From Nitrospira sp. (GTDB lineage Bacteria > Nitrospirota > Nitrospiria > Nitrospirales > Nitrospiraceae), in assembly GCA_005116745.1 (NCBI GenBank), contig SWDS01000006.1:917222-981221 (forward strand): a DNA stretch of 64,000 nucleotides. The letters run 5' to 3'. Numbering within the stretch: position 1 is the first letter of the stretch; each line of letters begins with the position of its first letter. The notes beneath the pieces were generated by a model. That model was not told the DNA's origin. It was given only the letters and a program-made list of their open reading frames with translations, and searched no databases. Shown here in pieces: positions 5,105 through 59,577 of the stretch. Position numbers and translations under genes: made by a program.

Positions 5105-5105
5105 C

Positions 5106-6515: not shown

Positions 6516-6520
6516 AGCCT

Positions 6521-7114
6521 GTGGATCAGCAGGGACATGCCCAATTCCCCATTCATGAGTTGCTCGCCCGCCGTTGGAGCCCTCGCGCATTTGATGAACG
6601 GCTGGTGGAGGCCGATACACTGCGGACGCTGTTCGAGGCGGCCCGCTGGGCGCCATCATCTAACAACGAACAGCCGTGGCGGTTTATCGTGGCGACCAAA
6701 GATCATGAAACGGAGTGGAATCGACTGGTCGCGTGTTTGGTGGAAGGCAACCGCACATGGGCTGCGCGAGCCCCGGTGTTAGTGCTTTCCGTGGCCAGTA
6801 TGTCCTTCGAGATGACTGGCAAGCCGAACCGGCATGCCTTTCACGATACAGGATTGGCGACGGAGAACCTTATCTTGCAGGCAGCAGCCTGTGGATTGAT
6901 GGCTCGTCAGATGGCGGGGTTTGATATGGAGAAGGCGCGGGCTGATCTTGGCATTCCGTCAGGCTGCGAGCCGGTTGCAATGATTGCGATTGGCTATCCA
7001 GGCGATCCGGATAGTCTGCCCGAACGGCTGCGGGAACGTGAATTACAACCACGGAGCCGCCGACCGATCGGAGAATGGACATTTTGGGGGCAGTGGGGAA
7101 CCCGAATTCCATAG
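6521..7114 (+). CDS. Nitroreductase-family FMN oxidoreductase
   Basis: A 197-residue cytoplasmic protein starting at GTG 6521, only 5 bases after the efflux operon. The N-terminal motif LLARRWSPRAFDERLV followed by LFEAARWAPSSNNEQPWRF is diagnostic of the nitroreductase superfamily, where the arginines and the SSNNEQPWRF stretch contact FMN. The C-terminal half (GCEPVAMIAIGYPG) matches the family flavin-binding strand and loop. It probably reduces nitroaromatics or quinones with NAD(P)H, but the substrate is not predictable. Its position after an RND pump suggests joint handling of toxic compounds, which is inference. Confidence 0.88.
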   Translation: MDQQGHAQFPIHELLARRWSPRAFDERLVEADTLRTLFEAARWAPSSNNEQPWRFIVATKDHETEWNRLVACLVEGNRTWAARAPVLVLSVASMSFEMTGKPNRHAFHDTGLATENLILQAAACGLMARQMAGFDMEKARADLGIPSGCEPVAMIAIGYPGDPDSLPERLRERELQPRSRRPIGEWTFWGQWGTRIP

Positions 7115-7147
7115 CCCGGTTCTGGTGTAAGAAGAGGAGTTCAGCCA

Positions 7148-7879
7148 ATGAAAGAGTTGAGCGGAAAAGTGGCGATTGTGACCGGGGCTTCCAACGGAAT
7201 CGGTCGAGCCATCGCAGAACGACTGGCGGAAGATGGCGCGATCGTCGTGGTCAACTATTCGAAGAGTTCAGAAAAAGCTCAACAGGTGGTCGTGGGGATT
7301 CAGGGCAAGGGGGGCAAGGCACTCGCGGTCCAAACCGACATGAGCCAGGTGGCGGAGGCTCGCCGTCTTGTGATCGACACCGTAAAACAATTCAATAGGC
7401 TGGATATTCTTGTGAATAATGCGGGCAAGTTCATGCCGAAGCCACTCGATGACACGACGGAAGAGGAGTTCGATAGTGTCATAGCCCTGAATGCCAAGGG
7501 GCCGTACTTTGCCATGCAGGAAGCCGCGAAGGTGCTCAAAGATGGGGGACGGATTGTGAATATCTCGACCGGTGGGACCCATCTCCACTTTCCCGGCGCC
7601 ACGGCCTATCTTGGGAGCAAGGCGGCGCTTGAGCAATATACCAAGGGGCTGGCGCAAGAACTGGCTTCGAAGGGGGTCACGGTGAATACCGTCTCGCCCG
7701 GCTTTACCGAAACGGGCATGATGACGGACGAGTATCGGCAGATCGGGATTCAGCTGACGCCGATGAAACGACTCGGTGTCCCCAAAGATATTGCTGACGT
7801 CGTGGCGTTCATCGTCAGTGAAGAGGCGCGGTGGCTGACAGGGCAGACGATCCAGGTCGGCGGCGGTATCGTCATGTAG
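7148..7879 (+). CDS. SDR-family oxidoreductase (FabG-like)
   Basis: Short-chain dehydrogenase of 243 residues. It shows the NAD(P)-binding TGASNGIG motif (12-19), NNAG (90-93), the catalytic Ser140 and the YxxxK pair Tyr154/Lys158. The C-terminal RWLTGQTIQVGGGIVM segment is typical of classical SDRs of the FabG and glucose-dehydrogenase kind. Two subfamily features (a Ser after VVNY and many basic residues nearby) suggest NADP(H) preference. It follows the nitroreductase by 33 bases and abuts the glycosylase gene with no gap. The true substrate is unknown. Confidence 0.9.
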   Translation: MKELSGKVAIVTGASNGIGRAIAERLAEDGAIVVVNYSKSSEKAQQVVVGIQGKGGKALAVQTDMSQVAEARRLVIDTVKQFNRLDILVNNAGKFMPKPLDDTTEEEFDSVIALNAKGPYFAMQEAAKVLKDGGRIVNISTGGTHLHFPGATAYLGSKAALEQYTKGLAQELASKGVTVNTVSPGFTETGMMTDEYRQIGIQLTPMKRLGVPKDIADVVAFIVSEEARWLTGQTIQVGGGIVM

Positions 7880-8551
7880 GTGAATCGGGATATCCAATCA
7901 GATCCCGCTGAAGCGATGTACCTCGTAAGTTCTGATTCAACGAACCATCTCTCAAAAATCGATCCGGTCATGCGCCGGTTGATCGGGGAAATTGGTCCTT
8001 GCTCCCTGAGGCCGAACGTTCGCCGCTCGCCGTTCGAATCACTTGCCCGAGCGATTGCCTATCAGCAGCTTCATGGCAAAGCGGCCGAGAGTATCCTCAA
8101 ACGGTTCATCGCGCTCTTTCCTGGACGGCGATTCCCTCGCCCCGAGGACCTCTTGGCGATGAAGGTGAGCGCCATCAGGAACGCCGGATTTTCGCGACCC
8201 AAAATCTTGGCGCTTCGTGATCTGGCCACAAAAACACTTGATGGGACGGTCCCGACAAACCGCATGATGAAGCGATTGGAAGATGAGGCCATTATCGAGC
8301 AGCTGATCAAAGTGCGAGGCATTGGGCGATGGACGGTCGAGATGATGTTGATCTTTCAGTTGGGGCGTCCGGATGTGTTGCCGGTCGACGATTTTGGTGT
8401 GCGGAATGGATTCCGGATCGCCTATGGTCGTCGTCTCCTGCCGACTGCACGCATTATGTTACGATACGGAGAGCGATGGAAACCGTATCGGACTATTGCA
8501 TCCTGGTATCTCTGGCGAGCTGCTGATCGGGAAAAGCAGAGACAAAAGTAA
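7880..8551 (+). CDS. DNA-3-methyladenine glycosylase II-like (HhH-GPD, AlkA type)
   Basis: Base-excision repair glycosylase of about 223 residues that removes alkylated purines. The helix-hairpin-helix (VRGIGRWT, 145-152) and the catalytic aspartate in LPVDDFGVRNG (Asp171 by analogy with AlkA Asp238) are both present. The start is uncertain: GTG 7880 directly follows the SDR stop, while ATG 7916 would remove 12 unconserved residues. It lacks the N-terminal AlkA beta domain and resembles the shorter bacterial and yeast Mag1-like forms. The downstream gene begins 4 bases after its stop, so these genes are probably one transcript. Confidence 0.88.
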   Translation: MNRDIQSDPAEAMYLVSSDSTNHLSKIDPVMRRLIGEIGPCSLRPNVRRSPFESLARAIAYQQLHGKAAESILKRFIALFPGRRFPRPEDLLAMKVSAIRNAGFSRPKILALRDLATKTLDGTVPTNRMMKRLEDEAIIEQLIKVRGIGRWTVEMMLIFQLGRPDVLPVDDFGVRNGFRIAYGRRLLPTARIMLRYGERWKPYRTIASWYLWRAADREKQRQK

Positions 8552-8555
8552 TCTG

Positions 8556-9437
8556 ATGGCAGACCAAAACAAACGACTCGATTCCAACGCTCAGGGTAAC
8601 TTCTACGTGGATGCCACGTGTATCAATTGTGACACCTGTCGTCAGTTGGCACCGCTGTGTTTCGAGGAGATCGGTGACTATTCCGCAGTCCATAACCAGC
8701 CGCAGGATGATATGCAAGCGCATCAGGCTTATCAGGCATTGCTTGCGTGTCCGGTTGGGTCAATCGGCACAGAGCACAGCGACAGGGTGCAGCTCCAAGC
8801 GGCGATGGCGAGCTTCCCACTACTCGTTGAAGACGGTGTGAGTTATTGCGGCTTTAATTCGGAGAAGTCGTTCGGCGCCAACAGTTTTTTCATTGAGCAT
8901 CCTGACGGGAATTGGCTGATCGATTCCCCGCGGTATCTCAAACATCTCGTTGATGTCTTTGCGCAGCGAGGAGGCATCGCCCACATCTTTTTGACCCACA
9001 AAGACGATGTGGCCGATGCGGATAAGTATGCCGCACATTTTGGCGCCAAGCGGATCATCCATCGAGCCGATGTGGATGCCGCACCCACTGCAGAACAGGT
9101 CATTGCTGGGGAAGAGCCGGTCTCTGTGGGATCGGAGTTCCAGATCATTCCTGTGCCAGGCCATACAGCCGGGAGTATGGCGCTGCTCTATCGGGAGCGA
9201 TTTCTCTTCACCGGCGATCATCTTTGGTGGGATTCACATACGCAGTCGTTGGAAGCCCCCACTCGCTTGATTTGGAGAAAATGGACCATGTTGGACTCTC
9301 TTCGTAAACTTCTCGACTACTCGTTCGAATGGGTGCTCGCGGGGCATGGCGATCGGGTGCATCTTTCCTCGATAGACCTGCAAAGACATCTGCTGGCATT
9401 GGTTGAGCGTCGTGAAAAAGGCAGATCATTGCGCTAG
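8556..9437 (+). CDS. Ferredoxin-MBL-fold hydrolase fusion
   Basis: A 293-residue protein starting at ATG 8556 (the frame is open upstream but overlaps the glycosylase). Residues about 15-70 form a minimal ferredoxin domain (CINCDTC, a later Cys, then ACPVGSI) able to hold one Fe-S cluster. Residues about 85-290 are a metallo-beta-lactamase fold with VPGHTAGS, FTGDHLWW and LAGHGD motifs. The first metal motif reads THKDDVAD, not the canonical HxHxDH, so only some of the usual metal ligands remain. This Fd-MBL arrangement is known from cyanobacteria, plants and other phyla, but its reaction is not established. It ends two bases before the next gene. Confidence 0.85.
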   Translation: MADQNKRLDSNAQGNFYVDATCINCDTCRQLAPLCFEEIGDYSAVHNQPQDDMQAHQAYQALLACPVGSIGTEHSDRVQLQAAMASFPLLVEDGVSYCGFNSEKSFGANSFFIEHPDGNWLIDSPRYLKHLVDVFAQRGGIAHIFLTHKDDVADADKYAAHFGAKRIIHRADVDAAPTAEQVIAGEEPVSVGSEFQIIPVPGHTAGSMALLYRERFLFTGDHLWWDSHTQSLEAPTRLIWRKWTMLDSLRKLLDYSFEWVLAGHGDRVHLSSIDLQRHLLALVERREKGRSLR

Positions 9438-9439
9438 CG

Positions 9440-11074
9440 ATGCTCACACTCGTCGCACAATGGATCGATCGGAACATTCTCTCGCTTGGCCGTGAAATGC
9501 GGTTGTCCTATCTGCCGCCGCTCATGGTCTATGTGGCGTACGGGATTTCTGGCCTCACCGGAATCGTCGGGACCTTCTTCGTCAAGGACTATCTTGGCCT
9601 TTCCGCGTCATTCCTTGCCGCGCTTGGATTCTGGGCCGGGATTCCCTGGGCTCTGAAGATGCCGATCGGGCATACCGTCGATCTTCTCTGGCGATGGAAG
9701 AGCTGGCTCGTTGGGGTGGGGGCCGGGCTGCTGACAATCAGTCTGGGCATCATGGCCCTGTTGATCGGCGATCGCGAGGCGATGACCGCCATCTGGCCGG
9801 CGGAAGTCTGGTATGTCCTCAGCGTGCTGCTGGCTCCTGTTGGGTATGTGATTCAAGACGCCGTTGCTGATGCGATGACGGTGGAAGCCGTGCCGCGAGT
9901 CGACGATCAGGGCGGGTCTTTCGATGACCAGACTCGCAAGCTCATGCATACAACCATGCAGACGCTCGGGCGTGTTGCGATTGTTGGGGGCGGTATCGCG
10001 GTTGCGCTGGTGAATGTCTATGTCTTCAGCGGAACCGAGGGATTGCCGCAGGCCGACCTCGTTCAGCTCTACAAACAGATCTATGTGATGGCCATGGCGA
10101 TTCCCGCGGTGTCAGTGGTGGGAGTCGGGCTGGCGTGGTGGCTGCAGCGTCGACAGACGCAACGACTTGTTCAAGAAGGATTCTCCACGGAACAGGCGCA
10201 ACAGATGGTGACCGTGCGGGACGCCCAAAGCGAACCGACGAAGCCGAACTGGTGGATCCTCATTGGCAGCATGGCCTTTGTCCTCTTCACTCTCACCGTG
10301 GGGCTGGGAGGATTTCCGTATCGCGAAGAGATCGTGTTTGCCGGTTCGATGACCATCGTCCTGTTTTTGATGTCGAGGCTGATGCGGGAACTGGAACCCG
10401 ACAAACGACTCACGTTGGTCGGCACCGCAGCCGTGGTCTTTTCGTTACGTGCGATTCCAGGGGCCGGCCCAGGCGCGACCTGGTGGATGATCGATCACTT
10501 GAAGTTCGATCAACAGTTCCTGTCGGTTCTCTCCCTGATCGGTGGCGTTGTGGCCTTGGTGGGGATGTTTGTGTTTCGGCGATTTATGGCTGAACGATCC
10601 ATCATGTACGTGGTTGGTTTCTTAACCATCGTTGGGACGATCCTCGCGCTTCCGATTGCGGGTCTCTACTATGGATTACACGAATGGACCGCGAGGCTCA
10701 GCGGAGGAGTCGTCGATGCCCGCTTCATTGCATTGGTCGACACGGCACTGGAATCGCCGCTGGTTCAGATTTCCATGATCCCGATGTTGGCCTGGATTGC
10801 GAATTCGGCTCCCGCCAATCTGAAGGCCACCTTCTTTGCCGTGATGGCGTCGTTCACCAATCTCGCGCTGTCCTTCAGCCAGCTCGGGACCAAGTATCTC
10901 AACGAGATCTTCGTCGTCACACGGGAAGTCCGAGACCAAGCCACCGACACCATTCAGATACCAGCCGACTACAGCCAGCTGGGCGAGCTCTTCATTGTGC
11001 AGCTCCTGCTCGGCCTGGCACTTCCCTTTTCCGCCATCCTGTTTGCCAAGCTCACAAAATTCAAGAGCGTGTGA
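9440..11074 (+). CDS. BT1/folate-biopterin-like MFS transporter
   Basis: Integral membrane protein of 544 residues with about 12-14 hydrophobic helices. The N-terminal pattern YVAYGISGLTGIVGTFFVKDYLGLS, then WALKMPIGHTVDLLW, resembles the BT1 (folate-biopterin) branch of the major facilitator superfamily seen in cyanobacteria, plants and Nitrospira. A hydrophilic loop near residues 235-270 separates the two halves. It starts 2 bases after the ferredoxin-MBL stop, so it closes that operon. It converges with the DUF3597 gene with a 3-base gap. The substrate (a pterin, folate or other anion) is inferred from the family only. Confidence 0.75.
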   Translation: MLTLVAQWIDRNILSLGREMRLSYLPPLMVYVAYGISGLTGIVGTFFVKDYLGLSASFLAALGFWAGIPWALKMPIGHTVDLLWRWKSWLVGVGAGLLTISLGIMALLIGDREAMTAIWPAEVWYVLSVLLAPVGYVIQDAVADAMTVEAVPRVDDQGGSFDDQTRKLMHTTMQTLGRVAIVGGGIAVALVNVYVFSGTEGLPQADLVQLYKQIYVMAMAIPAVSVVGVGLAWWLQRRQTQRLVQEGFSTEQAQQMVTVRDAQSEPTKPNWWILIGSMAFVLFTLTVGLGGFPYREEIVFAGSMTIVLFLMSRLMRELEPDKRLTLVGTAAVVFSLRAIPGAGPGATWWMIDHLKFDQQFLSVLSLIGGVVALVGMFVFRRFMAERSIMYVVGFLTIVGTILALPIAGLYYGLHEWTARLSGGVVDARFIALVDTALESPLVQISMIPMLAWIANSAPANLKATFFAVMASFTNLALSFSQLGTKYLNEIFVVTREVRDQATDTIQIPADYSQLGELFIVQLLLGLALPFSAILFAKLTKFKSV

Positions 11075-47345: not shown

Positions 47346-48137
47346 ATGCTGACCTCTAGCTTCATCTTTCTCCCCGGTGTCGGACCAGTCACGGAAAGGC
47401 GTTGGTGGCAAGAGGGCCTGCTCGATTGGCAAAGTTTCCTGGATCGTCCGTCCGTAGCCGGTCTCTCCGAGCAGCGCAAGACCTGGTACGATGAAGAGCT
47501 TCGAGAGGCGCAATCGCTGACAGAAATGGGACAGATTCATTTGTTTGGCTCACGCCTTCCACGGCGAGAACATTGGCGACTCTACAAAGCCTGCCGACCT
47601 CGGACAAGCTTTCTCGACATCGAAACAACCGGCGCATCGCCGGAATCAGGAGAGGTGACTGTCGTTGGGCTTCATCACGGAGGAAACACGACAAGCTTGG
47701 TTCGTGGCGAAACTCTGACGACCGAGCGGTTGCAGACGGAGCTTGATCACTGTGACCTCCTTGTGACATTTTTCGGATCCGTCTTTGATGTCCCCTATCT
47801 CCGTGCTAAGTTTCCTGATCTCCGGTTTCCCACACTGCACTTCGACCTCTGTTTTGCCGCCCGTCGGCTTGCGTTACGTGGAGGACTGAAACACATCGAA
47901 CAAGAACTGGGCATCGAGCGCAACCGGACCATCAGCGGTCTCGACGGATTGGATGCGGTCCGCCTATGGTTCCTGTGGCGAGGAGGGGACATGATCGCTC
48001 GTGATACGCTCTTGACCTACAATCGGGCGGATACCGAAAACCTCGTACTCCTTGCCGATCGCTTCTATGAGGACATGATGTCACGGTTTGGCCCTTCCTC
48101 ATTGTCGATCACCCTTCAACCGGCCTATTCCCAATGA
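47346..48137 (+). CDS. RNase H-like exonuclease (YprB type)
   Basis: A 263-residue 3'-5' exonuclease-like protein. Start ATG 47346 follows an upstream frame with shadow composition. The YprB-type N-terminus (HLFGSRLPRREHWRLYKACRPRTSFLDIETTGAS) carries the first acidic motif DIETTG; DVPYLRAKFPDL and NRADTENLVLLADRFYE supply further conserved acidic residues of the RNase H fold. It probably trims RNA or DNA 3' ends. Its stop overlaps the phosphatase start by 4 bases (ATGA), implying coupled translation. It has no signal peptide. Confidence 0.82.
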   Translation: MLTSSFIFLPGVGPVTERRWWQEGLLDWQSFLDRPSVAGLSEQRKTWYDEELREAQSLTEMGQIHLFGSRLPRREHWRLYKACRPRTSFLDIETTGASPESGEVTVVGLHHGGNTTSLVRGETLTTERLQTELDHCDLLVTFFGSVFDVPYLRAKFPDLRFPTLHFDLCFAARRLALRGGLKHIEQELGIERNRTISGLDGLDAVRLWFLWRGGDMIARDTLLTYNRADTENLVLLADRFYEDMMSRFGPSSLSITLQPAYSQ

Positions 48138-48889
48138 GCAGCTGGATCGGCGTCGGTCGGAGCGAGATCGGACACGTGCGCACCCTGAACCAGGATGCGT
48201 TCGCCGTCCTCGATGAGGTGGGTGTCTGGGCCGTCGCGGATGGAATGGGTGGTCATGTTGGCGGCGAAGTCGCCGCTCAAACGGCCATTGCAACCGTACA
48301 AGCCGAAGCACGAACAACAAGCACTCTGCTTTATAACGATCAAGCATCCGCTGTGGAGGTGTTAACAGACCTAATCAGCCAAGCGCATGACGCGATTCTC
48401 AATCAGGTTCGATCAAAATCCAAGCTGAAAGGGATGGGCACGACCATCGTGCTACTGGCGATCGTCTCCGGCCCCGCCCCGCTTGCCTATCTCGCCCATG
48501 TCGGCGACAGTCGTGCCTATCGGTTTCGATCCGGCACGTTGACCCCTCTAACCAAAGACCATACGTTGATCGAAAAATACCTGGAACGCGGTATCCTCAC
48601 GGTAGAAACGGCGAAGACTCATCCAGAACGACATGTGTTAACACGTGCCTTGGGGGTCGGCTCGACGATGAAACCTACCGTCACGGCCCTTCCCCTACTC
48701 CCTGAGGACCTGGTCCTGCTTTGCTCGGATGGGCTGACCAAGATGTTAGAGGACGAAGAGATCCGTACCGTGGTCGCTGCGGGCGAGCTCGACCCAACTC
48801 ATGTCTGCAACCGCCTCGTCACCGCAGCACTCGATCGGGGAGGTGAAGATAACGTCACTGTGGTAGTGGTCGCGCCTCATTACTCCTGA
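48134..48889 (+). CDS. PP2C-type Ser/Thr protein phosphatase
   Basis: A 251-residue cytoplasmic phosphatase with the metal-binding and catalytic motifs of bacterial PP2C (PppA/Stp1-like): RTLNQDAF (Asp21), VADGMGGH (Asp36), HVGDSRAYRF, and CSDGLTKML plus RGGEDNVTVVV at the C-terminus. It dephosphorylates Ser/Thr residues on proteins using Mn2+ or Mg2+. ATG 48134 overlaps the exonuclease stop. No Hanks-type kinase gene is adjacent, so its kinase partner lies elsewhere. Confidence 0.93.
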   Translation: MSSWIGVGRSEIGHVRTLNQDAFAVLDEVGVWAVADGMGGHVGGEVAAQTAIATVQAEARTTSTLLYNDQASAVEVLTDLISQAHDAILNQVRSKSKLKGMGTTIVLLAIVSGPAPLAYLAHVGDSRAYRFRSGTLTPLTKDHTLIEKYLERGILTVETAKTHPERHVLTRALGVGSTMKPTVTALPLLPEDLVLLCSDGLTKMLEDEEIRTVVAAGELDPTHVCNRLVTAALDRGGEDNVTVVVVAPHYS

Positions 48890-48967
48890 CTCTACTTCGT
48901 TATTGACAAGGCTCACCAGCCCGTGTAGTTTTTCTCGACATCTCACCCATTACTTGTACGGAGTCCT

Positions 48968-49846
48968 ATGATAATTCGATCGAGGTCTGCAGTGTGCTGG
49001 AGTCTCCTCCTCGCTGCAGGTATGGCTACGACTGCACTGGCAGCCGAACCTTCTGACCCGGAGTCGACCATTCGCCAACTGGTTCGCGCAAACGCTGAGA
49101 AGGACTTGCCAACCCTTTCCCGCTTGATGGCCCACGATGCCGACATCGTGAGTTATACCGTAGGTGGCCGCAAGTATGTCGGCTGGCCGGAGTTCGAACG
49201 GGAAATGCGCGAGGAGTTTGCCAACACGCAGAAAATAGAAACCCCCATTACGGAACTCAAGGTCTGGACGAAAGGCGATCTCGCCTGGTTTACCATGGAG
49301 ATGGATTACACTCGCTATACCGGCGAGGGGTCTGCTGTGAAACGGATGGTTCTTCCCCTCCGTGAGACCGGCGTCCTGGAACGTCGTGCCGGGCGTTGGC
49401 AATTGCTGTCCTGGCACGAGTCCTTCCGATCCGCTCAGCCTGGAGGCCCACTTGCGTCGCCGTCAGCGGCAGCAGGCTCACAAAAGCTCGTCAGCACGAC
49501 GGCTGCTGCCTTGCCTGATGTGAGCGGGGAATGGGATATCCTCGAAGTCGAGGATGATAAACGCTACAAAGCGACGTTAGACAAGAATGGGAACGGACCC
49601 TACACACAACAGGGTGGACGGTTCGTCACAACAAAAATTGAGAACCGACTGTGGCACGGCACCTGGCACCAACCCGGCAACGACCGCGAAGGCGGGTTTG
49701 AGGTTCTGCTTTCAGAAGACGGCACACAAGCCAAAGGAATCTGGTGGTACACACGAGTCGACACGAGAAAGAATATACCGCCAAAGGAACACGGTGGCAC
49801 ATACCACTGGAAAAAGGCAACATCATCGCCGGCCAGCGCCCAATGA
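48968..49846 (+). CDS. Exported SnoaL-like protein with C-terminal beta domain
   Basis: A 292-residue exported protein. Signal peptide: SAVCWSLLLAAGMATTALAAE. Residues about 30-160 resemble a DUF4440/SnoaL-like NTF2 fold (TIRQLVRANAEKDLPTLSRLMAHDADIVSY, then WTKGDLAWFTMEMDYTRY). A Ser/Ala-rich linker leads to a beta-rich C-terminal domain at about 180-290 of unknown kind (WDILEVEDDKRYKATLDKNGN, GIWWYTRVDTRK). It may bind a ligand in the periplasm. It is followed by another exported protein at 80 bases. Confidence 0.7.
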   Translation: MIIRSRSAVCWSLLLAAGMATTALAAEPSDPESTIRQLVRANAEKDLPTLSRLMAHDADIVSYTVGGRKYVGWPEFEREMREEFANTQKIETPITELKVWTKGDLAWFTMEMDYTRYTGEGSAVKRMVLPLRETGVLERRAGRWQLLSWHESFRSAQPGGPLASPSAAAGSQKLVSTTAAALPDVSGEWDILEVEDDKRYKATLDKNGNGPYTQQGGRFVTTKIENRLWHGTWHQPGNDREGGFEVLLSEDGTQAKGIWWYTRVDTRKNIPPKEHGGTYHWKKATSSPASAQ

Positions 49847-49926
49847 GCCCGTTTATTTTCTCTGAGCCATACCAAGACATCGGAGTCCGGTTTATCATCA
49901 CCGCTTCACTTCCTCTGGGAGGTCTT

Positions 49927-50931
49927 ATGCGCAGGTCCCTCGTTCTTTTTATCTCTCTCTTCTTCATGATCTCATCAGCCTACGCTGATGGGGGCCATGA
50001 GCATCACGCCATTCCCACCCTCAAAAAGCAGGTGGGCTCAAAGATTACCTACGGGGAAAACACGGCGACCCTGACCTTTGGCCCCATCGATCTTCCTACA
50101 GGCCACGGCGAAGGCGATATGGGCGATTCCATGCCGCGATTCAACTTCCAGTTGCCCGAAGACAAGTATTTGATCGGATTCAAGTCGGCTCTTTCTACAG
50201 TCGATGGGAAAGAATTGCCGAGAAACTATCTGCACCATATTTTGATGATCAACAACACCAAGCCTAGCGTGTCCTGCCCTGGTGAGCCGCTCTTCTACGG
50301 TGGAGCTGGACTCGAAATGTCGGAGACACAATTCCCTGATGGATACGGCGTCCAACTTTCGGCAACCGATAAGCTCATGACGGTGGTCGCGTTCTATCAC
50401 GGCGCCCCAGTCACCAAGGACGTCATCGCAACGTTTACGATGTATTTCGCCCCGAAGGCCAAACCGGTCAAAGCAATGGATGTCTATCAAGTTGGCGTCA
50501 ACATCGTCTGTTTTACCAAGTTCGGTGATCGCCCTGCCGATCAGACAGACGAAGGAATTGAAATCGGTCCGGGTGTCCAAGTCCGCACGGCTCCACTGAA
50601 GTTCAGCATGGACGGCTGCGTCAAATACGCGTATCCGCACGGCCACGATGAATTGCTCCTGATCGCTTTGGAAAATAAGACCAAGAAACAGACCCTTCTC
50701 CGGACTATTCCGGATGCCGAGCGCGATGGAACACTTCGGGAATTCCTACCCCATCAAGTCTATAAAGACGGCCAGGGATTCCCCATCTCCAAAGACGAGG
50801 ACTATGAGATGGTGATGGTCTACCACCATGCTCTAGAAAAAACTGAAGCCCAACATGGGATGGGCAATTATCTGCTGTATATGACGCCAGGTGCCTGCTC
50901 GGAAAAGGGCAAGACTGCCGCGGCGCATTGA
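49927..50931 (+). CDS. Exported protein with possible PHM-like copper domain
   Basis: A 334-residue exported protein from ATG 49927 (GGGAGG upstream; the longer frame overlaps the previous gene). It has a signal peptide (LFISLFFMISSAYA) and a His-rich start (GGHEHHA). Segments LHHILMINN, CPGEPLFYGGAGLEM, FPDGYGVQLSATDKLMTVVAFYHG and VVFTMYFAPKA-like strands resemble the jelly-roll of copper type II ascorbate-dependent monooxygenases, including the LHH histidines. A second half (YAYPHGHDELLLIAL) repeats a similar pattern. Copper-binding is plausible but unproven. A strong stem-loop follows the stop. Confidence 0.6.
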   Translation: MRRSLVLFISLFFMISSAYADGGHEHHAIPTLKKQVGSKITYGENTATLTFGPIDLPTGHGEGDMGDSMPRFNFQLPEDKYLIGFKSALSTVDGKELPRNYLHHILMINNTKPSVSCPGEPLFYGGAGLEMSETQFPDGYGVQLSATDKLMTVVAFYHGAPVTKDVIATFTMYFAPKAKPVKAMDVYQVGVNIVCFTKFGDRPADQTDEGIEIGPGVQVRTAPLKFSMDGCVKYAYPHGHDELLLIALENKTKKQTLLRTIPDAERDGTLREFLPHQVYKDGQGFPISKDEDYEMVMVYHHALEKTEAQHGMGNYLLYMTPGACSEKGKTAAAH

Positions 50932-51231: not shown

Positions 51232-54200
51232 ATGCCGCAGAGTGAGCCTGTTACCATCCTCCTCGTCAATGCGATCGCCGAGGAAATCAAACTGGCCACG
51301 CGCACCCTCAGAAGATTCTTCCCAAACTGCCGCGTCGACGCAGTCTACACCGTGGAGGAAGCGCTTCAGTGGGGACCTCGGGCATCATGGCAGCTCATCG
51401 TAATCGATGAGGATGTGATCGCCCAGCACGTTGGGCCCATTTTCTCGGAACTGAAGCGGCTTGTTCCCTATACCACGCTCGTGCTGCAAACGGATCATAG
51501 CGACTCTACCACCGCCTTGAATGCGCTTCAGTCGGGTGCAGATATTATCCTCTACAAGAAATCACCAGGTTTTCTCGAGGAACTGGTCTTGTCCATAAGA
51601 GGTGCGCTCGAAACACGTGCCATCCGCATGACGCTCAAACAGACACAGGAACGTCACGACCGTCTCATCGATATCCTCAGCGATGGATTATACGAACTCG
51701 ATGTGGATGGACGATTCGTATCTCTAAGCCCGCTCGTCACCGACATGCTGGGCTACAGGCAGGACGAGTTACTCGGCATTCTCTACACCGCCGTCGTACC
51801 GTCTGATCAACAAGCTCTCGCGCATCATCGTTTCAATGACCGTAGAACAGGGCCGCGAGCAGCCCAGCGCATGGAAATCGACCTCCTCCGCAAGACCTCC
51901 GCTGACACACCAGCCCACACCCGAGTCAGAGCCGAGATCAGCGCGAGGGGACTGTACGATGTGAATCACCGGTATCTTGGAACGCTGGGTCTGATGCGCG
52001 ATATCTCACAACACCACCGGCAGACCAAGACCATCCACCAGCTTGAGCATCAACTTCGTGAGTCCGATCAACTTCTCGCTATTGCACTGCGCGTGTCAAC
52101 CTTATCAAAAACTCTGCATGCCCCCCACCGTGCGATTCAAGCCCAATCTCAACTCCTGCTCAAAACCATCCGTGATGCGCATCTGATAGAACAAGTCGAT
52201 TCGCTTGCGACGTACGCTGCTGAAGCCATTCATCTAGGAAGCGAACTCATCCAGACCGCGACGGACATCGTTATCCGCCGAGACACCATCAACGACATCA
52301 TCGAAGCCGTCCTGACCTCCGCTCAACCTCCCCTCACAAACACCGATTGGATTGAACGGGCATATGGACAGAATCTTCCGCCTTACGCCGGAAGCCTCGA
52401 CTCCATAGTGGATCTCGTGGGCATGCTCCTCTCACATGCCCACCGCTATATGGCGGCTATGGGAAACCCACATCGACTACGAGTCAGTACCAGGATCAGC
52501 CCATCCGGATCCCCTATAGATCAAGAAACAGACCCGATTCGACAAGCGACGGCCACCGAATTCGAAATTCACATCCAAGAAACTGACATCATGGTTGAGG
52601 TTGAGGAACCGACCCTGCAAGCAACAACCGGTGATCTCTTTGCGGCCTATGCAGTAATCAGACAGCTCGGAGGCCGTTTGGATTTTCAGGCCCCGATCAA
52701 CGGTTTCTTGTCGATCAAGGTGTGGATTCCGGTGGAACCACCTCCCTTACTGGACAGTCCCACTGTCCCTGTACCCTCCGTGTTTTCTTCGGCAGGCGGC
52801 GCAGTCGAACGGAATGTCGAGGCGATTTTTCAGACTGCAGCACACACCTTGCCGCCCACACCCCTCTCCTTCACCCAATCAACGAAGCCTTTGCCTGAGC
52901 GCCGCAAATACATTCGGACGGTCGTCACCCTGCCAGCACGCGTTACCATTGGTAATAGGCTACATGAAGGTATCATGGTCGATCTGAGCCCAAGCGGAGC
53001 CTCGTTGGAGGTCAACGGTGCACTTCCATCATTCGAGCAACAGCCCGTCTACCTGCTCCTGAAAACAGTCGTGAGCATGGTGGAACTAGATGCCACCGCG
53101 TATAACCGAGGAGCCCCACCCAGACAAGCCGGCATCGAGCGGCAAGCGTCCCGTCTTGCACTCGAGTTCAAGGCAGTCGATGAGAACCACCGAAAGATCC
53201 TCGCGTCGTTTATTGACGCAGCGCATGTACGCGCACTGACCATAACGGTCGAAGCTCAGCTGCCATCAATGGATAGGGCTGGTGACCTTGCAGCACCCTT
53301 TACCGTGACGGGACTACCAGGCACGGAAGCTCGTGAGACCGTGAGAGTTCAAGTCGCGCTGCGGGTCCACATTGAAACTTCTAACGTTGCAGCCGGACGT
53401 CTGTTGGGCCTCGTCACCAACTTTAGCAGAGGTGGTGTATGCCTGCTCACAGAGCCGTTCCTGAAAATGACTGACGAGGTAGTTGCACTTCACTTTCCTT
53501 CGATCAGCACTCGTACTCAACCAACGCAACAGAAGCCAGAAACACCAGACGCGATTCTGATCGGCCGCATTGTCCATCTGGCGCCTGATGCGACCGCTCC
53601 ATCCGAGCTAACACCAGGTCTATCACAGCCGAGACAGCGCATCGGCATCCGTTTTTCCCAACTGACGCCGTTTGCAGAACGGGAAATCAACCGCGTGATT
53701 GCACAACACATCGGCTCTTCCCTAGACGTTGCCAATCTGGACAGCCAACCAGTGATCGTCAGCGACAGATGGGAATGCCGGAATACACACGGTCAAGCTA
53801 TTGCAGTGACGGCCGACCATGCTCGCCATCACATATCACCCGACACCCCGATCGTGATCGTGATTCCGGGATTCGGATCGACCCAAACTGATTACGTCCC
53901 ACTCTCGTTTCACCTCGCTGCCAACTATCTGCGCGTGCTTCGCTATGACCACTCGAACCATGTCGGCCACAGCGAGGGCAGTGTCCTACACATCACTCTA
54001 AGCAGCTTACAGACTGATCTCCAGAGCGTTCTGGACCTTGTCCACACCACATGGCCCGCCGCTCCAGTCACGCTCCTCGCCGAGGATATTACTGCGCGAG
54101 TGGCAATCAAAGTTACGGCACAAAGCACAGCGGCTGATCGGCTTTTCTTGTTGAATCCTGTCCTCGATCTAGAAACCGCTCTGTCTACCATCACTGGCAC

Positions 54201-55443
54201 CAATGTCATTGAAACCTACCGACAAGGCCATCGTCGGGGCGTGGTCAATCTCTGGGGCCTCAATGTCGACTTCGACAAGTTTGTCGGCGATGCAATCACT
54301 GGAGGGTATATCGACTTATCCTCGTTACCGACAAACCTCGCTCAACTCGTGACTCCGCCAATTATTCTCGCCTCTCCCCGAAAGAACCGTCCCATTGAAG
54401 ACATCTTCGGCCCTCAACATGAGCCTGTTCGTGCCATGGAAGCCGCCCCACCCGTTGTATCGCTGCCGGCCGACCTGTCTGGAGAATCCTGCGACGACGA
54501 TCGTCGTACCGAAGCCTTCGAGATAATCTTGCAGTTGATCTCAACTCCCCTGATCGACAGTCTTCCCTTGGCTCAGAGCCAGGAATCGAACCACCGCGAG
54601 GTGCATCAGCAACGGCAGTTGGAGCATGAGCGCATCCGCCTTCGATACCACGTCTCGCAGGCCACACGTAGCGCCCTGTGGGGGGCTCATTTGGCCCACC
54701 TGCCTGAACTCGAACGCTTGCCGAACTATGAGGGCATGACGAATGACCTGTATCGACAGCTTCTTCCCCTTGAACCAGGCAAGACTGTCCTCGATATCGG
54801 CTGCGGCCAACGACACTTCGCCCGTCTCATGTTGACCAATCAGGCCTATCGGTTGGCGCATCACAGCAAACGGACGACCGTCCCTCTCCGCTACGTCGGG
54901 TTGGAGCAATCGCATGAATCGCTTAGACTTGCAGAACAGCAGTTCCATACATTCGCTAAGGAACTGCCCGGCACGCTCAGGGCTGCCGTCCCAACTGCTC
55001 AATTGGTAACAACAAGCTGGATGCGCACAGACTGGAATGCACCGCTTCCTTTCACCAACGGATCGATTGAGCGCATTCTCTGCCATCTCTCGCTCTCCTT
55101 CACGTCCTCACCCCTTCATTGCCTCAAACAGATGCTCCGCGTCTTGCATCTGGACGGAACGGTCGTCGTGACCTGTCTTCAACCGCACACTGACCTCTCG
55201 ACACTGTTTCGCCGCCACCTGCTCGCCAAAGACCACGATGAATTTGGGTCTCCGGCTCAGATCGTCCTTCACTATCTCGGCCGTCTGCGTGAAGCCATTT
55301 GCCATGGCTTATTGCATGTCTATGAGCGGGATGAGTTGTCCCGTCTACTGGCTCATGCAGGTGCGGGCCCAGTCCAGTTTTTCACTGTCCTCGACAACCA
55401 ACTTCTACTCGCCGTTGTACGGAAGACCAAATCTGCTGGGTAA
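51232..55443 (+). CDS. Multidomain regulator-hydrolase-methyltransferase fusion (1403 aa)
   Basis: A single 1403-residue frame without breaks. Domains in order: receiver-like (6-128, Asp59 at the usual phosphorylation position), PAS (141-260, DGLYELDVDGRFVSLSP), a coil and degenerate histidine-kinase part (265-500: no HExR box; HATPase end YAVIRQLGGRLDF), PilZ-like 1 (556-665, RRKYIR and VDLSPSGASL), PilZ-like 2 (700-828, TNFSRGGVCL), a LuxD-like alpha/beta-hydrolase (842-1050, IPGFGSTQTDY and RYDHSNHVGHSEG) whose usual nucleophile Ser site reads AEDIT, and a SAM methyltransferase (1160-1320, VLDIGCGQRHFA). It could couple c-di-GMP or redox sensing to acyl or small-molecule modification; this is inference. 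Confidence 0.85.
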   Translation: MPQSEPVTILLVNAIAEEIKLATRTLRRFFPNCRVDAVYTVEEALQWGPRASWQLIVIDEDVIAQHVGPIFSELKRLVPYTTLVLQTDHSDSTTALNALQSGADIILYKKSPGFLEELVLSIRGALETRAIRMTLKQTQERHDRLIDILSDGLYELDVDGRFVSLSPLVTDMLGYRQDELLGILYTAVVPSDQQALAHHRFNDRRTGPRAAQRMEIDLLRKTSADTPAHTRVRAEISARGLYDVNHRYLGTLGLMRDISQHHRQTKTIHQLEHQLRESDQLLAIALRVSTLSKTLHAPHRAIQAQSQLLLKTIRDAHLIEQVDSLATYAAEAIHLGSELIQTATDIVIRRDTINDIIEAVLTSAQPPLTNTDWIERAYGQNLPPYAGSLDSIVDLVGMLLSHAHRYMAAMGNPHRLRVSTRISPSGSPIDQETDPIRQATATEFEIHIQETDIMVEVEEPTLQATTGDLFAAYAVIRQLGGRLDFQAPINGFLSIKVWIPVEPPPLLDSPTVPVPSVFSSAGGAVERNVEAIFQTAAHTLPPTPLSFTQSTKPLPERRKYIRTVVTLPARVTIGNRLHEGIMVDLSPSGASLEVNGALPSFEQQPVYLLLKTVVSMVELDATAYNRGAPPRQAGIERQASRLALEFKAVDENHRKILASFIDAAHVRALTITVEAQLPSMDRAGDLAAPFTVTGLPGTEARETVRVQVALRVHIETSNVAAGRLLGLVTNFSRGGVCLLTEPFLKMTDEVVALHFPSISTRTQPTQQKPETPDAILIGRIVHLAPDATAPSELTPGLSQPRQRIGIRFSQLTPFAEREINRVIAQHIGSSLDVANLDSQPVIVSDRWECRNTHGQAIAVTADHARHHISPDTPIVIVIPGFGSTQTDYVPLSFHLAANYLRVLRYDHSNHVGHSEGSVLHITLSSLQTDLQSVLDLVHTTWPAAPVTLLAEDITARVAIKVTAQSTAADRLFLLNPVLDLETALSTITGTNVIETYRQGHRRGVVNLWGLNVDFDKFVGDAITGGYIDLSSLPTNLAQLVTPPIILASPRKNRPIEDIFGPQHEPVRAMEAAPPVVSLPADLSGESCDDDRRTEAFEIILQLISTPLIDSLPLAQSQESNHREVHQQRQLEHERIRLRYHVSQATRSALWGAHLAHLPELERLPNYEGMTNDLYRQLLPLEPGKTVLDIGCGQRHFARLMLTNQAYRLAHHSKRTTVPLRYVGLEQSHESLRLAEQQFHTFAKELPGTLRAAVPTAQLVTTSWMRTDWNAPLPFTNGSIERILCHLSLSFTSSPLHCLKQMLRVLHLDGTVVVTCLQPHTDLSTLFRRHLLAKDHDEFGSPAQIVLHYLGRLREAICHGLLHVYERDELSRLLAHAGAGPVQFFTVLDNQLLLAVVRKTKSAG

Positions 55444-55544: not shown

Positions 55545-56822
55545 ATGACAGATCATGCCGCTCCTCAATCGAACCCTAATCAGCCAGGCACAGCTTCACT
55601 GCAACGACTTACGAAGTTCGCACGGGACATAGGGCACCCGACAAGCCTTCCCATCATCGCAGAACGGATTCTTTCTGGCCTCTCTGACGCATCCCGGCAC
55701 CCTCTAGGGCTACTGTATCTGCTTGATCGTGAGCGAGAATGTTTTCGCCTGGTGAATGTACCCACGCCGACCTCTTTAATAGCCGCGCCTCTCGTCGTTC
55801 CTCTCAAGCACCCCCTCGTTCAACAACTGGCTGATCGCAAGGACATCCTCAACTCGTCCCTGCTGGCCGACTCCCTACGCACGACATTGCTGGATAACAC
55901 AGCAGATGCCCAGTTCGCCACACCTCCCATTAATCTGGCCATCCCGCTGCTGAATCAAGGTCGGTTGATCGCTTTCGTCGTCCTCCAATCTCAAAAAGAA
56001 TCCACGATCATCCCTTCCGATACCCTTGAACTACTGACCGCGATGGCCCAGAGCGCCGCCAATGCGCTCGACTCTTTCCTATTGTACGAAGACCTTCGGC
56101 AATCTCAGGTCCTCATGCGGCGAACTGATCGACTGCGTTCTTTAGAAACCATTGCAGGGGGCTTCGCGCATGAAATCAGAAACCCCTTGACGTCGATCAA
56201 GACGTTCATCCAACTGGCTCCAGAACGGAAGGATGACAGTCAGTTCATCGGAGAATTCAGCCGCATTGTGCTCGAGGACGTCAATCGGATTGAGCGGTTG
56301 ATTCAGGAGATTCTCGACTACGCTCGATATATGGAACCTCAGTTGACCGATGAAGATCTGAATGAAATCGTCTCGTCGTGCCTGTACTTCATCCAAGTGA
56401 AGGCAGACAGCCGCGGGATCAAGATTGAAAAAGATTTGGCATCGGAGCTTCCTCGTGGCATGTTAGATCGGCAGCAAATCAAACAGGTTCTCTTAAACCT
56501 GCTCTTGAATGCGATGGATGCCATCGGCGACAAAAGTGGAACTCTTCGAGTACGAACCACTCGACTCGCAAAAGTGGGCGGTGAGATGTGGATGCAGATA
56601 CAGATCGAGGATACAGGGCACGGCATCTCCGCTGAAAACCTTGACCACATCTTCGATCCTTTCTTTACCACGAAATATGCGAGTACCCTAAACGAAGGAA
56701 CTGGTTTGGGACTGACCATTGCTCATCAGATCGTTCGGGAGCATCGAGGAGAGATTCAAGTGCAGAGTACGGAAGGAAGTGGAACAACCTTCCTCATCAA
56801 TCTTCCCTCCCATCAAGGTTAG
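55545..56822 (+). CDS. GAF-domain sensor histidine kinase
   Basis: A 425-residue soluble kinase. Residues about 20-180 form a GAF domain (GLLYLLDRERECFRLV, AIPLLNQGRLIAFVVL). The kinase core has the H-box FAHEIRNPLTS (His209), N-box NLLLNAMDAIGDKSG, G1 DTGHGIS, F-box DPFFTTK and G2 GTGLGLTIA, all intact. It lies between the 1403-residue fusion and an NtrC-family regulator (16 bases downstream), which is its likely partner. No transmembrane segment, so it senses a cytoplasmic signal or receives input from the upstream protein. Confidence 0.92.
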   Translation: MTDHAAPQSNPNQPGTASLQRLTKFARDIGHPTSLPIIAERILSGLSDASRHPLGLLYLLDRERECFRLVNVPTPTSLIAAPLVVPLKHPLVQQLADRKDILNSSLLADSLRTTLLDNTADAQFATPPINLAIPLLNQGRLIAFVVLQSQKESTIIPSDTLELLTAMAQSAANALDSFLLYEDLRQSQVLMRRTDRLRSLETIAGGFAHEIRNPLTSIKTFIQLAPERKDDSQFIGEFSRIVLEDVNRIERLIQEILDYARYMEPQLTDEDLNEIVSSCLYFIQVKADSRGIKIEKDLASELPRGMLDRQQIKQVLLNLLLNAMDAIGDKSGTLRVRTTRLAKVGGEMWMQIQIEDTGHGISAENLDHIFDPFFTTKYASTLNEGTGLGLTIAHQIVREHRGEIQVQSTEGSGTTFLINLPSHQG

Positions 56823-56838
56823 AACGTAAGGAGTGCAT

Positions 56839-58269
56839 GTGGAAAGTTTGGCTGTTAGGAAACGGGTTCTGCTGATCGATGACGATCCCCGAGTCCGTGC
56901 CTCCCTCAAAATGGTTCTCGAACCAATCTATGACATTCTCCAGGCCGGTGATGCTCAAGAGGGTCTCGATGTGTTTCGAAAAGATGAACCCAACCTCATC
57001 CTCCTTGATGTCATTCTCCCGGGAACCGACGGCCTCACAGTGCTTCAAACGCTCCGCATGGAGAGCAAGATGACTCCTGTCATCATGCTCACAGGTACCA
57101 AATCTGTCAAAACAGCCGTCGATGCCATGAAGTTCGGCGCTGCTGACTATCTCTCAAAACCATTCGACGTCGATGAACTCCGTATCATCATCGATCGCGT
57201 CCTGAACTCTTCTGAATTAGAGCGAGAAGTGAAGCAGTTGCGGGCTCAAGTCGTCCAGCGCTATGCCTTCCATAATCTGATCGGCAAAAGCCAGGTCATG
57301 CAGGAGATCTACTCAAAAATCGAGCAGGTCGCCGATAGCCGCACCACGGTACTCATTACTGGAGAAAGTGGCACAGGAAAGGAATTAGTCGCAAAAGCCT
57401 TGCACTACAACAGTTCCCGACGCGAGCGCCCCTTCATTGCCCTGAACTGCGCCGCGTTGCCTGAAACGCTCATAGAAAGCGAACTCTTTGGCCATGAAAA
57501 AGGGTCGTTCACGGATGCCACAGCCCGACGCGTCGGACAGTTTGAATTGGCGAACACCGGAACGCTGTTCCTTGACGAAATCGGTGACTTGAGTCCGATC
57601 ACGCAAGCGAAGCTCCTGCGTGTCATCCAAGAGCGCGAATTTACGAGAATCGGGGGAGTTCAGCCAATCAAGGTCGATGTCCGCATCGTGACAGCGACGA
57701 ACAAGAATCTTGATGACCTTGTTCGAAAATCGCAGTTTCGAGAAGACCTCTACTACCGCATCAATGTCATTGCGCTCGTTCTCCCCCCACTCCGTGAACG
57801 CGGCGAGGATATTCCCCTCCTGGCCAAGCATTTCCTCGAGAAACGGCTGGACGAGGAACGACGACCTCGTATCGAATTCGGAAAAGAAGCATTGGAGCTT
57901 CTGACTCGATATTCTTGGCCTGGCAATGTTCGCGAGTTGGAAAACTTCGTCGAGCAGGCGTTCATCTGGTCCCAAAATGCGACACAAATCACTCCAGAGC
58001 ATTTGCCGACTCTAATCAAGAATGACTCTCGTTCAACATCGCTTCGAGACGATACCCTCGCCGGTCGCATGTCGCTTGAAAAAGCCGTGATGGAGTTTGA
58101 ACGGGAGATTATCCTTGATGCGTTGAAACGGACCAATTACGTACAAACCCACGCCGCGAACCTACTTGGAATTAGCCGACGGATGCTGAAATATCGAATG
58201 GACACCCTCAGCATCGGTCGTCCGGACAATTCCTCGACCCAAGAGCCCGACCTGCCCATACAAGAATGA
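56839..58269 (+). CDS. NtrC-family sigma-54 response regulator
   Basis: A 476-residue regulator. GTG 56839 is preferred, since AAGGAG lies 5 bases before it. The receiver (Asp57 in LILLDVILPGTDG; acidic pair IDDD) is intact, followed by the AAA+ domain ([14 protein letters not shown] variant of the sigma-54 loop, [24 protein letters not shown]) and a Fis-type HTH (ANLLGISRRMLKYRMD). It activates sigma-54 promoters after phosphorylation by the GAF kinase next door (16-base gap). Compared with the regulator at 39398 this one keeps all phosphorylation residues. Confidence 0.94.
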   Translation: MESLAVRKRVLLIDDDPRVRASLKMVLEPIYDILQAGDAQEGLDVFRKDEPNLILLDVILPGTDGLTVLQTLRMESKMTPVIMLTGTKSVKTAVDAMKFGAADYLSKPFDVDELRIIIDRVLNSSELEREVKQLRAQVVQRYAFHNLIGKSQVMQEIYSKIEQVADSRTTVLITGESGTGKELVAKALHYNSSRRERPFIALNCAALPETLIESELFGHEKGSFTDATARRVGQFELANTGTLFLDEIGDLSPITQAKLLRVIQEREFTRIGGVQPIKVDVRIVTATNKNLDDLVRKSQFREDLYYRINVIALVLPPLRERGEDIPLLAKHFLEKRLDEERRPRIEFGKEALELLTRYSWPGNVRELENFVEQAFIWSQNATQITPEHLPTLIKNDSRSTSLRDDTLAGRMSLEKAVMEFEREIILDALKRTNYVQTHAANLLGISRRMLKYRMDTLSIGRPDNSSTQEPDLPIQE

Positions 58270-58440: not shown

Positions 58441-59577
58441 GTGTCGCACATGATCACGGCCTCTCGTCAGTCAGGAACACAACCGACAGTCCTCGTAGTT
58501 GATGATGAAGCGGGGCCCCGCGATGCTCTTAAAATCATACTTCGTACTTTCTGCAACGTTCGTTCTGCAGAGAACGCCAAGATGGCCCTCGAGGTCCTCA
58601 GCCAGGGACCCATTGACCTGATCACACTCGATCAAAAGCTTCCGGATCGTCATGGACTCGAGCTTCTCAGAGACATCAAGCACCATCACCCCGACGTGGA
58701 AGTCATTATCGTCACGGGATACGGGAGCCTGACGTCTGCCATGGAGGGTATCCGTCAGGGCGCTGCGGGTTACTTACTGAAGCCTTTCAACGTGAACGAA
58801 CTGACCACCCTCATTCAACAGACGATGGACAAGAAGCGCCGACTCGACTTTCTTCGCTACTGCCTTCGGACGCTACCAGACCTGTGGGGATCGGAGGAAG
58901 AGAGTGGACGTGCATGGGACACAGTTAAGACGGAATATGCGTTGCTTTCCATTCACCCGCAGAACCATGATGTTTTGCAGCAAGACGAGATGACCTTACT
59001 TCCCCTCCTATCCGATTTTTTGGAAGCCACAGACCGCCAATTACTCAATCATTCGAGCCGAGTCAGTTTCTATGTTACGCTGATGGCTAGCCAACTCAAC
59101 CTTACCGTATCGGAACAAAAAGCGTTGGCCTTGGGAGCCTTTCTGCATGATGTAGGAAAAACAAGTCTGCCATCATATAAGTTTTCAGAGGACCAGATCC
59201 TCCCGTCGGGTGAAGCATCCCTCTGTAGGGAACACATCGACAGAGGTGCACGAATGATTGCCCCGTTGGGTTTCTCGATTGAGACGAGAGAAATCATCAC
59301 ATCCCACCACGAACGATGGGATGGACAGGGCTACCCTCATGGACTCCAAGGCACGGATATTCCCTTACTAGCCCGCATTGTCGGTATTGCCCAAACATTT
59401 GATCATCTAACCGCCGACGCACCTGGACGCGTCACCCTTCCTCTGGAGGCCGCAATCCGTCAGATCTCGCTTCAATCTGATACGCATTTTGACCCGCAGT
59501 TACTTGAACTCTTCGTTCAGGTCGTAAAGGACTCCCCCGTCTCTCCTCGTGCCATGGAGATCGCTCCCGCCGCTTGA
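58441..59577 (+). CDS. Receiver-HD-GYP response regulator
   Basis: A 378-residue two-domain protein. Start GTG 58441 (GGAG close upstream) or ATG 58450. The receiver keeps acidic Asp21/Asp22, phosphoacceptor Asp64 (LITLDQKLPDRHG) and Lys114. The C-terminal half (about 175-375) is HD-GYP: HDVGK (236-240), HHE (289-291), GYP (297-299). It should cleave c-di-GMP under control of phosphorylation. It ends 5 bases before the convergent recN gene. With the kinase and NtrC regulator upstream, it completes a signalling block. Confidence 0.9.
   Translation: MSHMITASRQSGTQPTVLVVDDEAGPRDALKIILRTFCNVRSAENAKMALEVLSQGPIDLITLDQKLPDRHGLELLRDIKHHHPDVEVIIVTGYGSLTSAMEGIRQGAAGYLLKPFNVNELTTLIQQTMDKKRRLDFLRYCLRTLPDLWGSEEESGRAWDTVKTEYALLSIHPQNHDVLQQDEMTLLPLLSDFLEATDRQLLNHSSRVSFYVTLMASQLNLTVSEQKALALGAFLHDVGKTSLPSYKFSEDQILPSGEASLCREHIDRGARMIAPLGFSIETREIITSHHERWDGQGYPHGLQGTDIPLLARIVGIAQTFDHLTADAPGRVTLPLEAAIRQISLQSDTHFDPQLLELFVQVVKDSPVSPRAMEIAPAA

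Follow-up and report, generated by a model that had tools for sequence, protein, structure and literature searches.

Relation to described acyl-signal systems

In the Rpf/DSF system, the acyl-signal synthase RpfF, which has a crotonase fold, is encoded beside the multi-transmembrane (multi-TM) kinase RpfC, and the output is RpfG, a response regulator (RR) with an HD-GYP domain. A relevant enzyme structure is that of LuxD (PDB entry 1tht), a thioesterase/acyltransferase for myristoyl-acyl carrier protein (ACP). In the Phc system of Ralstonia, the methyltransferase PhcB (methyl 3-hydroxymyristate) is paired with the histidine kinase PhcS (PMC8578825, PMC11960443). Here we describe a gene from Nitrospira sp. 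with likenesses to all three. It lies at 51232..55443 on the + strand of a 64,000-nucleotide stretch of contig SWDS01000006.1 (the window) and encodes, in one open reading frame of 1403 amino acids (aa), a pseudo-receiver, a PAS domain, a histidine-kinase-like module, two PilZ domains, a LuxD-like alpha/beta hydrolase, and a methyltransferase. We slightly favor the view that this protein (the target) descends from a bifunctional acyl-signal synthase that was ancestrally paired with a seven-transmembrane (7TM) receptor kinase, and that it is now catalytically dead.

The target is homologous to LuxD (1tht; PF02273, NF052253) in both fold and sequence, and its active relatives (homologs that keep the catalytic residues; see below) match the whole Ser-Asp-His triad. 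Unlike LuxD, the target lacks the triad and is fused to PilZ domains and a methyltransferase, and it scores far below the equivalog cutoff of NF052253 (34 of 420 bits). We rejected a role in bioluminescence, as there is no convincing LuxC in the window's genome: the one marginal match (20.8 bits) lies inside an unrelated 1020-aa frame, and none is near the target. We saw no LuxE near the target, and no search aimed at LuxE was made. We also rejected phage defense. (The PADLOC match to mad2 spans the methyltransferase only and is probably generic.)

As in Phc, a methyltransferase gene lies beside a sensor kinase gene, both in the window operon and in all of the active loci, and by analogy the active relatives could plausibly make a fatty-acid methyl ester. 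Going by the descriptions, PhcB is a methyltransferase only, whereas here a methyltransferase is fused to LuxD and PilZ domains and accompanied by a 7TM kinase and an NtrC-type regulator. As in Rpf, the synthase adjoins a multi-TM kinase, and there is an RR-HD-GYP output gene (58441-59577 in the window; also in locus L125). Unlike RpfF, the Nitrospirota synthase is LuxD-like with a methyltransferase rather than crotonase-fold, and Rpf has neither a methyltransferase nor PilZ. The partner kinases of the active relatives have one or two copies of the region that defines the HisKA_7TM kinases (PF16927), and the window's kinase has lost it. The Nitrospirota circuit would work like Phc and Rpf, but by the tests made it is a member of neither.

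The initial annotation, which was made from the letters and their translations, knew of no described system with this domain order. Our search of the open-access literature also found no description of a LuxD+PilZ+methyltransferase protein, a Nitrospira PilZ quorum-sensing system, or a PhcB-Nitrospira system, although this absence is weak evidence. (For a nitrifying community, one paper on quorum sensing concerns acyl-homoserine lactones; PMC8553950.) The order is not unique, however: it is one of several arrangements within a family that is spread through the phylum Nitrospirota.

A single frame with a degenerate active site

Domains were assigned with Pfam and NCBIfam profiles; all features in the window that we discuss are on the + strand. 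The LuxD-like hydrolase (aa 845-1110; 53764..54561) contains an Acyl_transf_2/LuxD match at aa 866-964 (PF02273, 5.9e-9), and the class I S-adenosylmethionine (SAM) methyltransferase domain (aa 1130-1403; 54619..55440) contains a Methyltransf_23 match at aa 1173-1377 (PF13489, 1.7e-7). Both matches are above cutoff, which confirms the hydrolase and methyltransferase that had been placed within residues 842-1320. In an AlphaFold model of aa 546-1403 (pLDDT 81, pTM 0.75), the best match in the PDB is also LuxD (1tht, E = 1.4e-12), and methyltransferases are matched as well. Together with the fold matches for the amino-terminal half, these results bear out the originally proposed series of domains in one unbroken frame. 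The frame is not the product of a sequencing or assembly error that joined separate genes, because about 85 Nitrospirales genomes contain a homolog of the same length (~1400 aa) in a single frame (30-90% identity; counted by hand).

The initial annotation had suggested that a second-messenger or redox input controls acyl transfer or hydrolysis by this protein. This is not supported: all three catalytic positions are lost in the target and in its closest relatives, so the hydrolase appears to lack an acyl-enzyme active site. At the position of the LuxD nucleophile (codon 54085..54087), Ser is present in 15 of 15 active relatives, while the target has Asp952, as do all of the long forms (38/38) once L062, which has Gly, is set apart; counts of 39 long forms include L062. 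Instead of Ser-Asp-His, the target has Asp952, Pro, and Gly, and the acid and base positions are variable across the long forms. The SAM-binding motif of the methyltransferase is also partly eroded. Motif I is complete in the active relatives, as D(A/V/P)GCGNG. The target (DIGCGQRH) keeps DIGCG and has lost the NG that follows in the active relatives, including the last Gly of DxGxGxG; in sister genera even the GCG is gone.

Could the target still be an enzyme, with Asp952 taking the place of Ser as nucleophile (in the manner of epoxide hydrolases and haloalkane dehalogenases), an active methyltransferase, and PilZ and PAS domains that control live chemistry? Asp952 is present in 38/38 long forms, the fold is retained, the motif RYDxxxHxGxSxG and R956 are invariant or nearly so, DIGCG is kept in the window, and the gene is under purifying selection (ratio of nonsynonymous to synonymous substitution rates, or dN/dS, of about 0.3). 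However, hydrolases with an Asp nucleophile require a His base, and in the alignment of long forms there is no conserved His or acid left after strand 6. The degraded motif I in sister genera and the frequent deletion of the gene also argue against a live enzyme, and we would be surprised if this explanation were correct.

The sensory modules of the target are degenerate as well. The receiver-like domain (aa 5-125; 51244..51606) matches Response_reg at aa 15-110 below the Pfam cutoff (0.0016). It retains D59 and K109, but one position of the acidic pair (position 13) is N or S in 39/39 long forms, and the pair is N-A in the window; this receiver is probably not phosphorylated in the usual way. 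The PAS domain (aa 140-262; 51649..52017) is found both by profile (PF00989, 2.1e-8, aa 143-258) and by fold. It is followed by a kinase-like module (aa 265-500; 52024..52731) with DHp and ATPase-like folds and without catalytic motifs. This region has no Pfam match to HisKA or HATPase by sequence, and the phospho-His position is K293 (just 5 of the 39 long forms have His there). The AlphaFold model of aa 1-545 (pLDDT 78) matches LOV/PAS histidine kinases (LOV-HK, 4gcz) and the ATP-binding domain of NtrB (1r62), although its overall pTM is low (0.38), with the domains apart. As modeled, aa 265-500 is a dead kinase-like module that has kept the kinase fold and lacks the phospho-His and the ATP-binding motifs.

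In contrast to these losses, both PilZ domains carry the motifs for binding cyclic di-GMP (c-di-GMP), RxxxR and (D/N)xSxxG. PF07238 was found twice, in two stretches (9e-13). The motifs are RKYIR and DLSPSG in PilZ 1 (aa 554-665; 52891..53226) and RETVR and NFSRGG in PilZ 2 (aa 697-835; 53320..53736). The RxxxR of PilZ 1 is invariant (39/39 long forms); in PilZ 2, RxxxR and the N/D are each present in 39/39 and the Ser in 37/39. The target may have kept the ability to bind c-di-GMP and, perhaps, an acyl ligand.

Active relatives and the paired kinase

Elsewhere in the Nitrospirota, shorter homologs (750-1080 aa) with PilZ, LuxD, and methyltransferase domains keep the Ser, Asp, and His, as do forms with a receiver and a PAS domain but without the kinase-like module (L074, L075, and L084). 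A profile of the active relatives aligns to 1tht across the triad (E = 4.9e-34). The kinase-like module is found in exactly the long forms, which lack the triad. In some genomes, such as G045 (L058 and L070) and G025 (L060 and L071), a dead long copy coexists with an active short one. In other Nitrospirota families, the LuxD-methyltransferase fusion occurs with one PilZ domain (L124, by Pfam) or as a bare fusion of 549-554 aa (L125 and L127). In searches for plasmid relatives, PLSDB gave only distant luxD and generic methyltransferases.

We also noticed several unusual arrangements. Unless there is a frameshift in the assembly, a 1666-aa frame (L077:6908-11905) joins PilZ-PilZ-LuxD-methyltransferase to a 7TM-GAF histidine kinase. 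In L073, the protein is naturally split into a receiver-PAS-PilZ gene (4893-6242) and a gene with three PilZ domains and LuxD-methyltransferase (6371-9601). And in L128 (5385-12642), overlapping genes encode an acyl-CoA dehydrogenase, a PilZ...LuxD-methyltransferase protein, and a multi-TM hybrid kinase, which makes this one more variant of the arrangement, with a different sensor.

Downstream of the active synthases is a histidine kinase with one or two 7TM regions (PF16927) followed by GAF, HisKA, and HATPase domains. The synthase and kinase genes overlap or are at most 4 nucleotides (nt) apart in four distant loci (L124-L127), and are 50-430 nt apart in family f4. The kinase that follows window-type synthases is an ortholog of ~425-485 aa that has no 7TM region. 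The presence of the catalytic Ser and of the 7TM region agrees in 74 of 75 gene pairs (both present in 25, neither in 49), which is striking but is not statistically strong, because the co-losses on the kinase tree represent just 1-2 independent events (and just 1-3 independent pairs were available for an independent-pairs test of Ser against 7TM, which made that test uninformative). This count excludes L128-L130, in which a relative with the Ser lies beside a different multi-TM hybrid kinase. L088 looks like a transitional form: the Ser has changed to Asp, the Asp and His are kept, and the 7TM region is already gone.

In the sole exception (L079), the Ser has become Asn and the 7TM region is kept. 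Here a PilZ-KAS III gene (L079:5162-6757) separates the synthase from the kinase, and its Cys (NACNGF), His, and Asn motifs look intact. L123 has lost the LuxD domain and kept the 7TM kinase, and it carries a KAS III gene of this kind (L123:5936-7519). In both loci this FabH-like protein (~530 aa) sits between a PilZ-methyltransferase protein and the 7TM kinase, and it seems to replace the LuxD activity.

A proposed signaling circuit

In L125 and L127, the gene directly upstream of the synthase encodes a FabF-like KAS. In L128 (overlapping), L129 (22 nt), and L130 (~640 nt), an upstream gene encodes an acyl-CoA dehydrogenase. Thirteen active loci, all from family f4 and genera g19/g20, have a single strong sigma-54 (-24/-12) site ahead of the synthase, at a distance of 31-273 bp from its earliest possible start; the overall rate of such sites is 0.03 per kb of strand. 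No strong site was found at the active loci of g14, g2, and g10. We rejected a sigma-54 promoter for the window gene, as no site before window-type genes is clearly above chance. An RR-HD-GYP gene closes both the locus of L125 and the window operon.

From the domain anatomy, the losses of the triad and the sensor, the gene pairing, the deletions, and the levels of constraint, all of them shown by computation, we infer the enzyme chemistry, the signal and its perception, and any remaining role of the target as follows. In living relatives, the LuxD-like domain would act on acyl-ACP as a thioesterase/acyltransferase, setting free or passing on the fatty-acyl group. The methyltransferase fused to it would then add a methyl group to the product, perhaps giving a fatty-acid methyl ester. 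The PilZ domains would bring in c-di-GMP as an input. The partner 7TM kinase would perceive the lipid and phosphorylate the NtrC-type regulator, which could feed back on the sigma-54 promoter of the synthase in several lineages, and the RR-HD-GYP protein would be another output. Both the active site of the synthase and the 7TM sensor of the kinase have been lost in the window's lineage. The protein that is left may be a regulator or scaffold with a PAS domain that binds c-di-GMP, is weakly constrained, and is deleted in many relatives. If the active circuit works in this way, with a PilZ-gated synthase whose product is a fatty-acid methyl ester or a related lipid, it is an undescribed system of cell-cell signaling in the Nitrospirota, and many Nitrospira, including this probable comammox species, have become both mute and deaf through the joint loss of the synthase active site and the receptor. 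We hold this larger proposal tentatively, with its chances just short of even. The lipid or signal product that was originally suggested fits the active members of the family.

Alternatively, the active family might not signal at all: LuxD-methyltransferase might make or remodel a membrane or storage lipid, with the 7TM kinase sensing the state of the membrane. No secreted signal has been demonstrated for the family, LuxD itself supplies a metabolic pathway, and we know of no ligands for HisKA_7TM kinases. But the pairing of one synthase with one kinase resembles Phc and Rpf signaling, as do the sigma-54 promoter on the synthase gene, the HD-GYP output, and the apparent swap of the acyl enzyme (LuxD for KAS III) while the receptor was retained. 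We consider this alternative rather unlikely.

Several observations weigh against our preferred reading of a dead synthase from a signaling pair. The invariance of Asp952 would not be expected from random decay, and the window's methyltransferase, with its DIGCG, may still bind SAM. The joint loss of Ser and 7TM reflects few independent events. Carboxyl methylation is a guess, because the methyltransferase domains have generic matches (BioC, UbiE, and ArsM). Finally, the family has no member with a known product, ligand, or phenotype; the chemistry of the signal is our inference.

Constraint, decay, and deletion

We computed pairwise dN/dS by the method of Nei and Gojobori. For the hydrolase and methyltransferase domains, dN/dS is 0.06-0.09 for active pairs versus 0.16-0.22 for dead pairs from the same genus (with the L069/L086 pair close to saturation). 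For the whole window gene compared to L038, dN/dS is 0.32, versus 0.07 for the neighboring NtrC. Of 80 genomes in the window's genus, 41 gave no strong match to the target (counted by hand; some of the 41 are incomplete). We read six loci without the target: in five of them, every neighbor from the PP2C gene to recN (see below) is kept and the target alone is absent, whereas the sixth (L151) also lacks the upstream trio. In addition, two copies of the target are spread over several frames within otherwise intact operons (L048:2456-6372 and L046:7983-11890); these are either pseudogenes or poor assemblies.

The invariant Asp952 and a dN/dS below 1 suggest that the target has some remaining function, while its repeated absence argues against an essential role. 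One possibility is that the dead protein was co-opted as an adaptor that binds c-di-GMP and perhaps an acyl group, and that modulates the neighboring kinase, NtrC, and HD-GYP proteins in place of the lost 7TM region. This is a variant of our preferred explanation that stresses new function over decay. It would account for the invariant motifs in both PilZ domains, the invariant hydrolase motif that persists without the triad, the conserved operon, the addition of the kinase-like module in exactly the triad-less forms, and a dN/dS well under 1. The target's faster evolution than its neighbors (0.32 versus 0.07 for NtrC), its absence from half of the genus (41/80), and broken copies such as L048 fit poorly with it. 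We regard co-option as a substantial, if somewhat doubtful, possibility.

The window neighborhood and the organism

Wherever the flanks were read, the gene order is fixed: PP2C, NTF2-like, secreted protein, target, GAF histidine kinase, NtrC-like regulator, RR-HD-GYP, and recN. The upstream trio (48134..50931) encodes, by Pfam and conserved synteny, a PP2C phosphatase, an NTF2-like protein, and a secreted-looking protein. The last of these (49744-50931) has no Pfam match and is strongly conserved at this locus (58-97% identity), even where the target is missing. Downstream are the GAF-HisKA-HATPase histidine kinase (55545..56822; 425 aa; Pfam), which lacks the 7TM sensor of its orthologs; the NtrC-like sigma-54 response regulator (56833..58269; Sigma54_activat, 7e-73, with a receiver and a Fis helix-turn-helix); and the receiver-HD-GYP protein (58441..59577; HD_5, 1e-34), a predicted c-di-GMP phosphodiesterase that adjoins the target locus throughout. 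The window's genome yielded neither a second LuxD-like protein nor a HisKA_7TM kinase (PF16927).

The window's genome contains an amoA-family gene (PF02461, E = 2.7e-99; G000:C8:50735-51442, L149), which makes it probable that this is a comammox Nitrospira.

Implications

An annotation based on domains alone would label the target as an acyltransferase and methyltransferase, which is a caution. The family appears to illustrate the stepwise decay of a synthase/receptor pair, from a transitional form (L088) to a full pseudoenzyme and then to clean deletion. The active relatives would be a testable lipid-signal system in the Nitrospirota that ties c-di-GMP to signal synthesis in one polypeptide.

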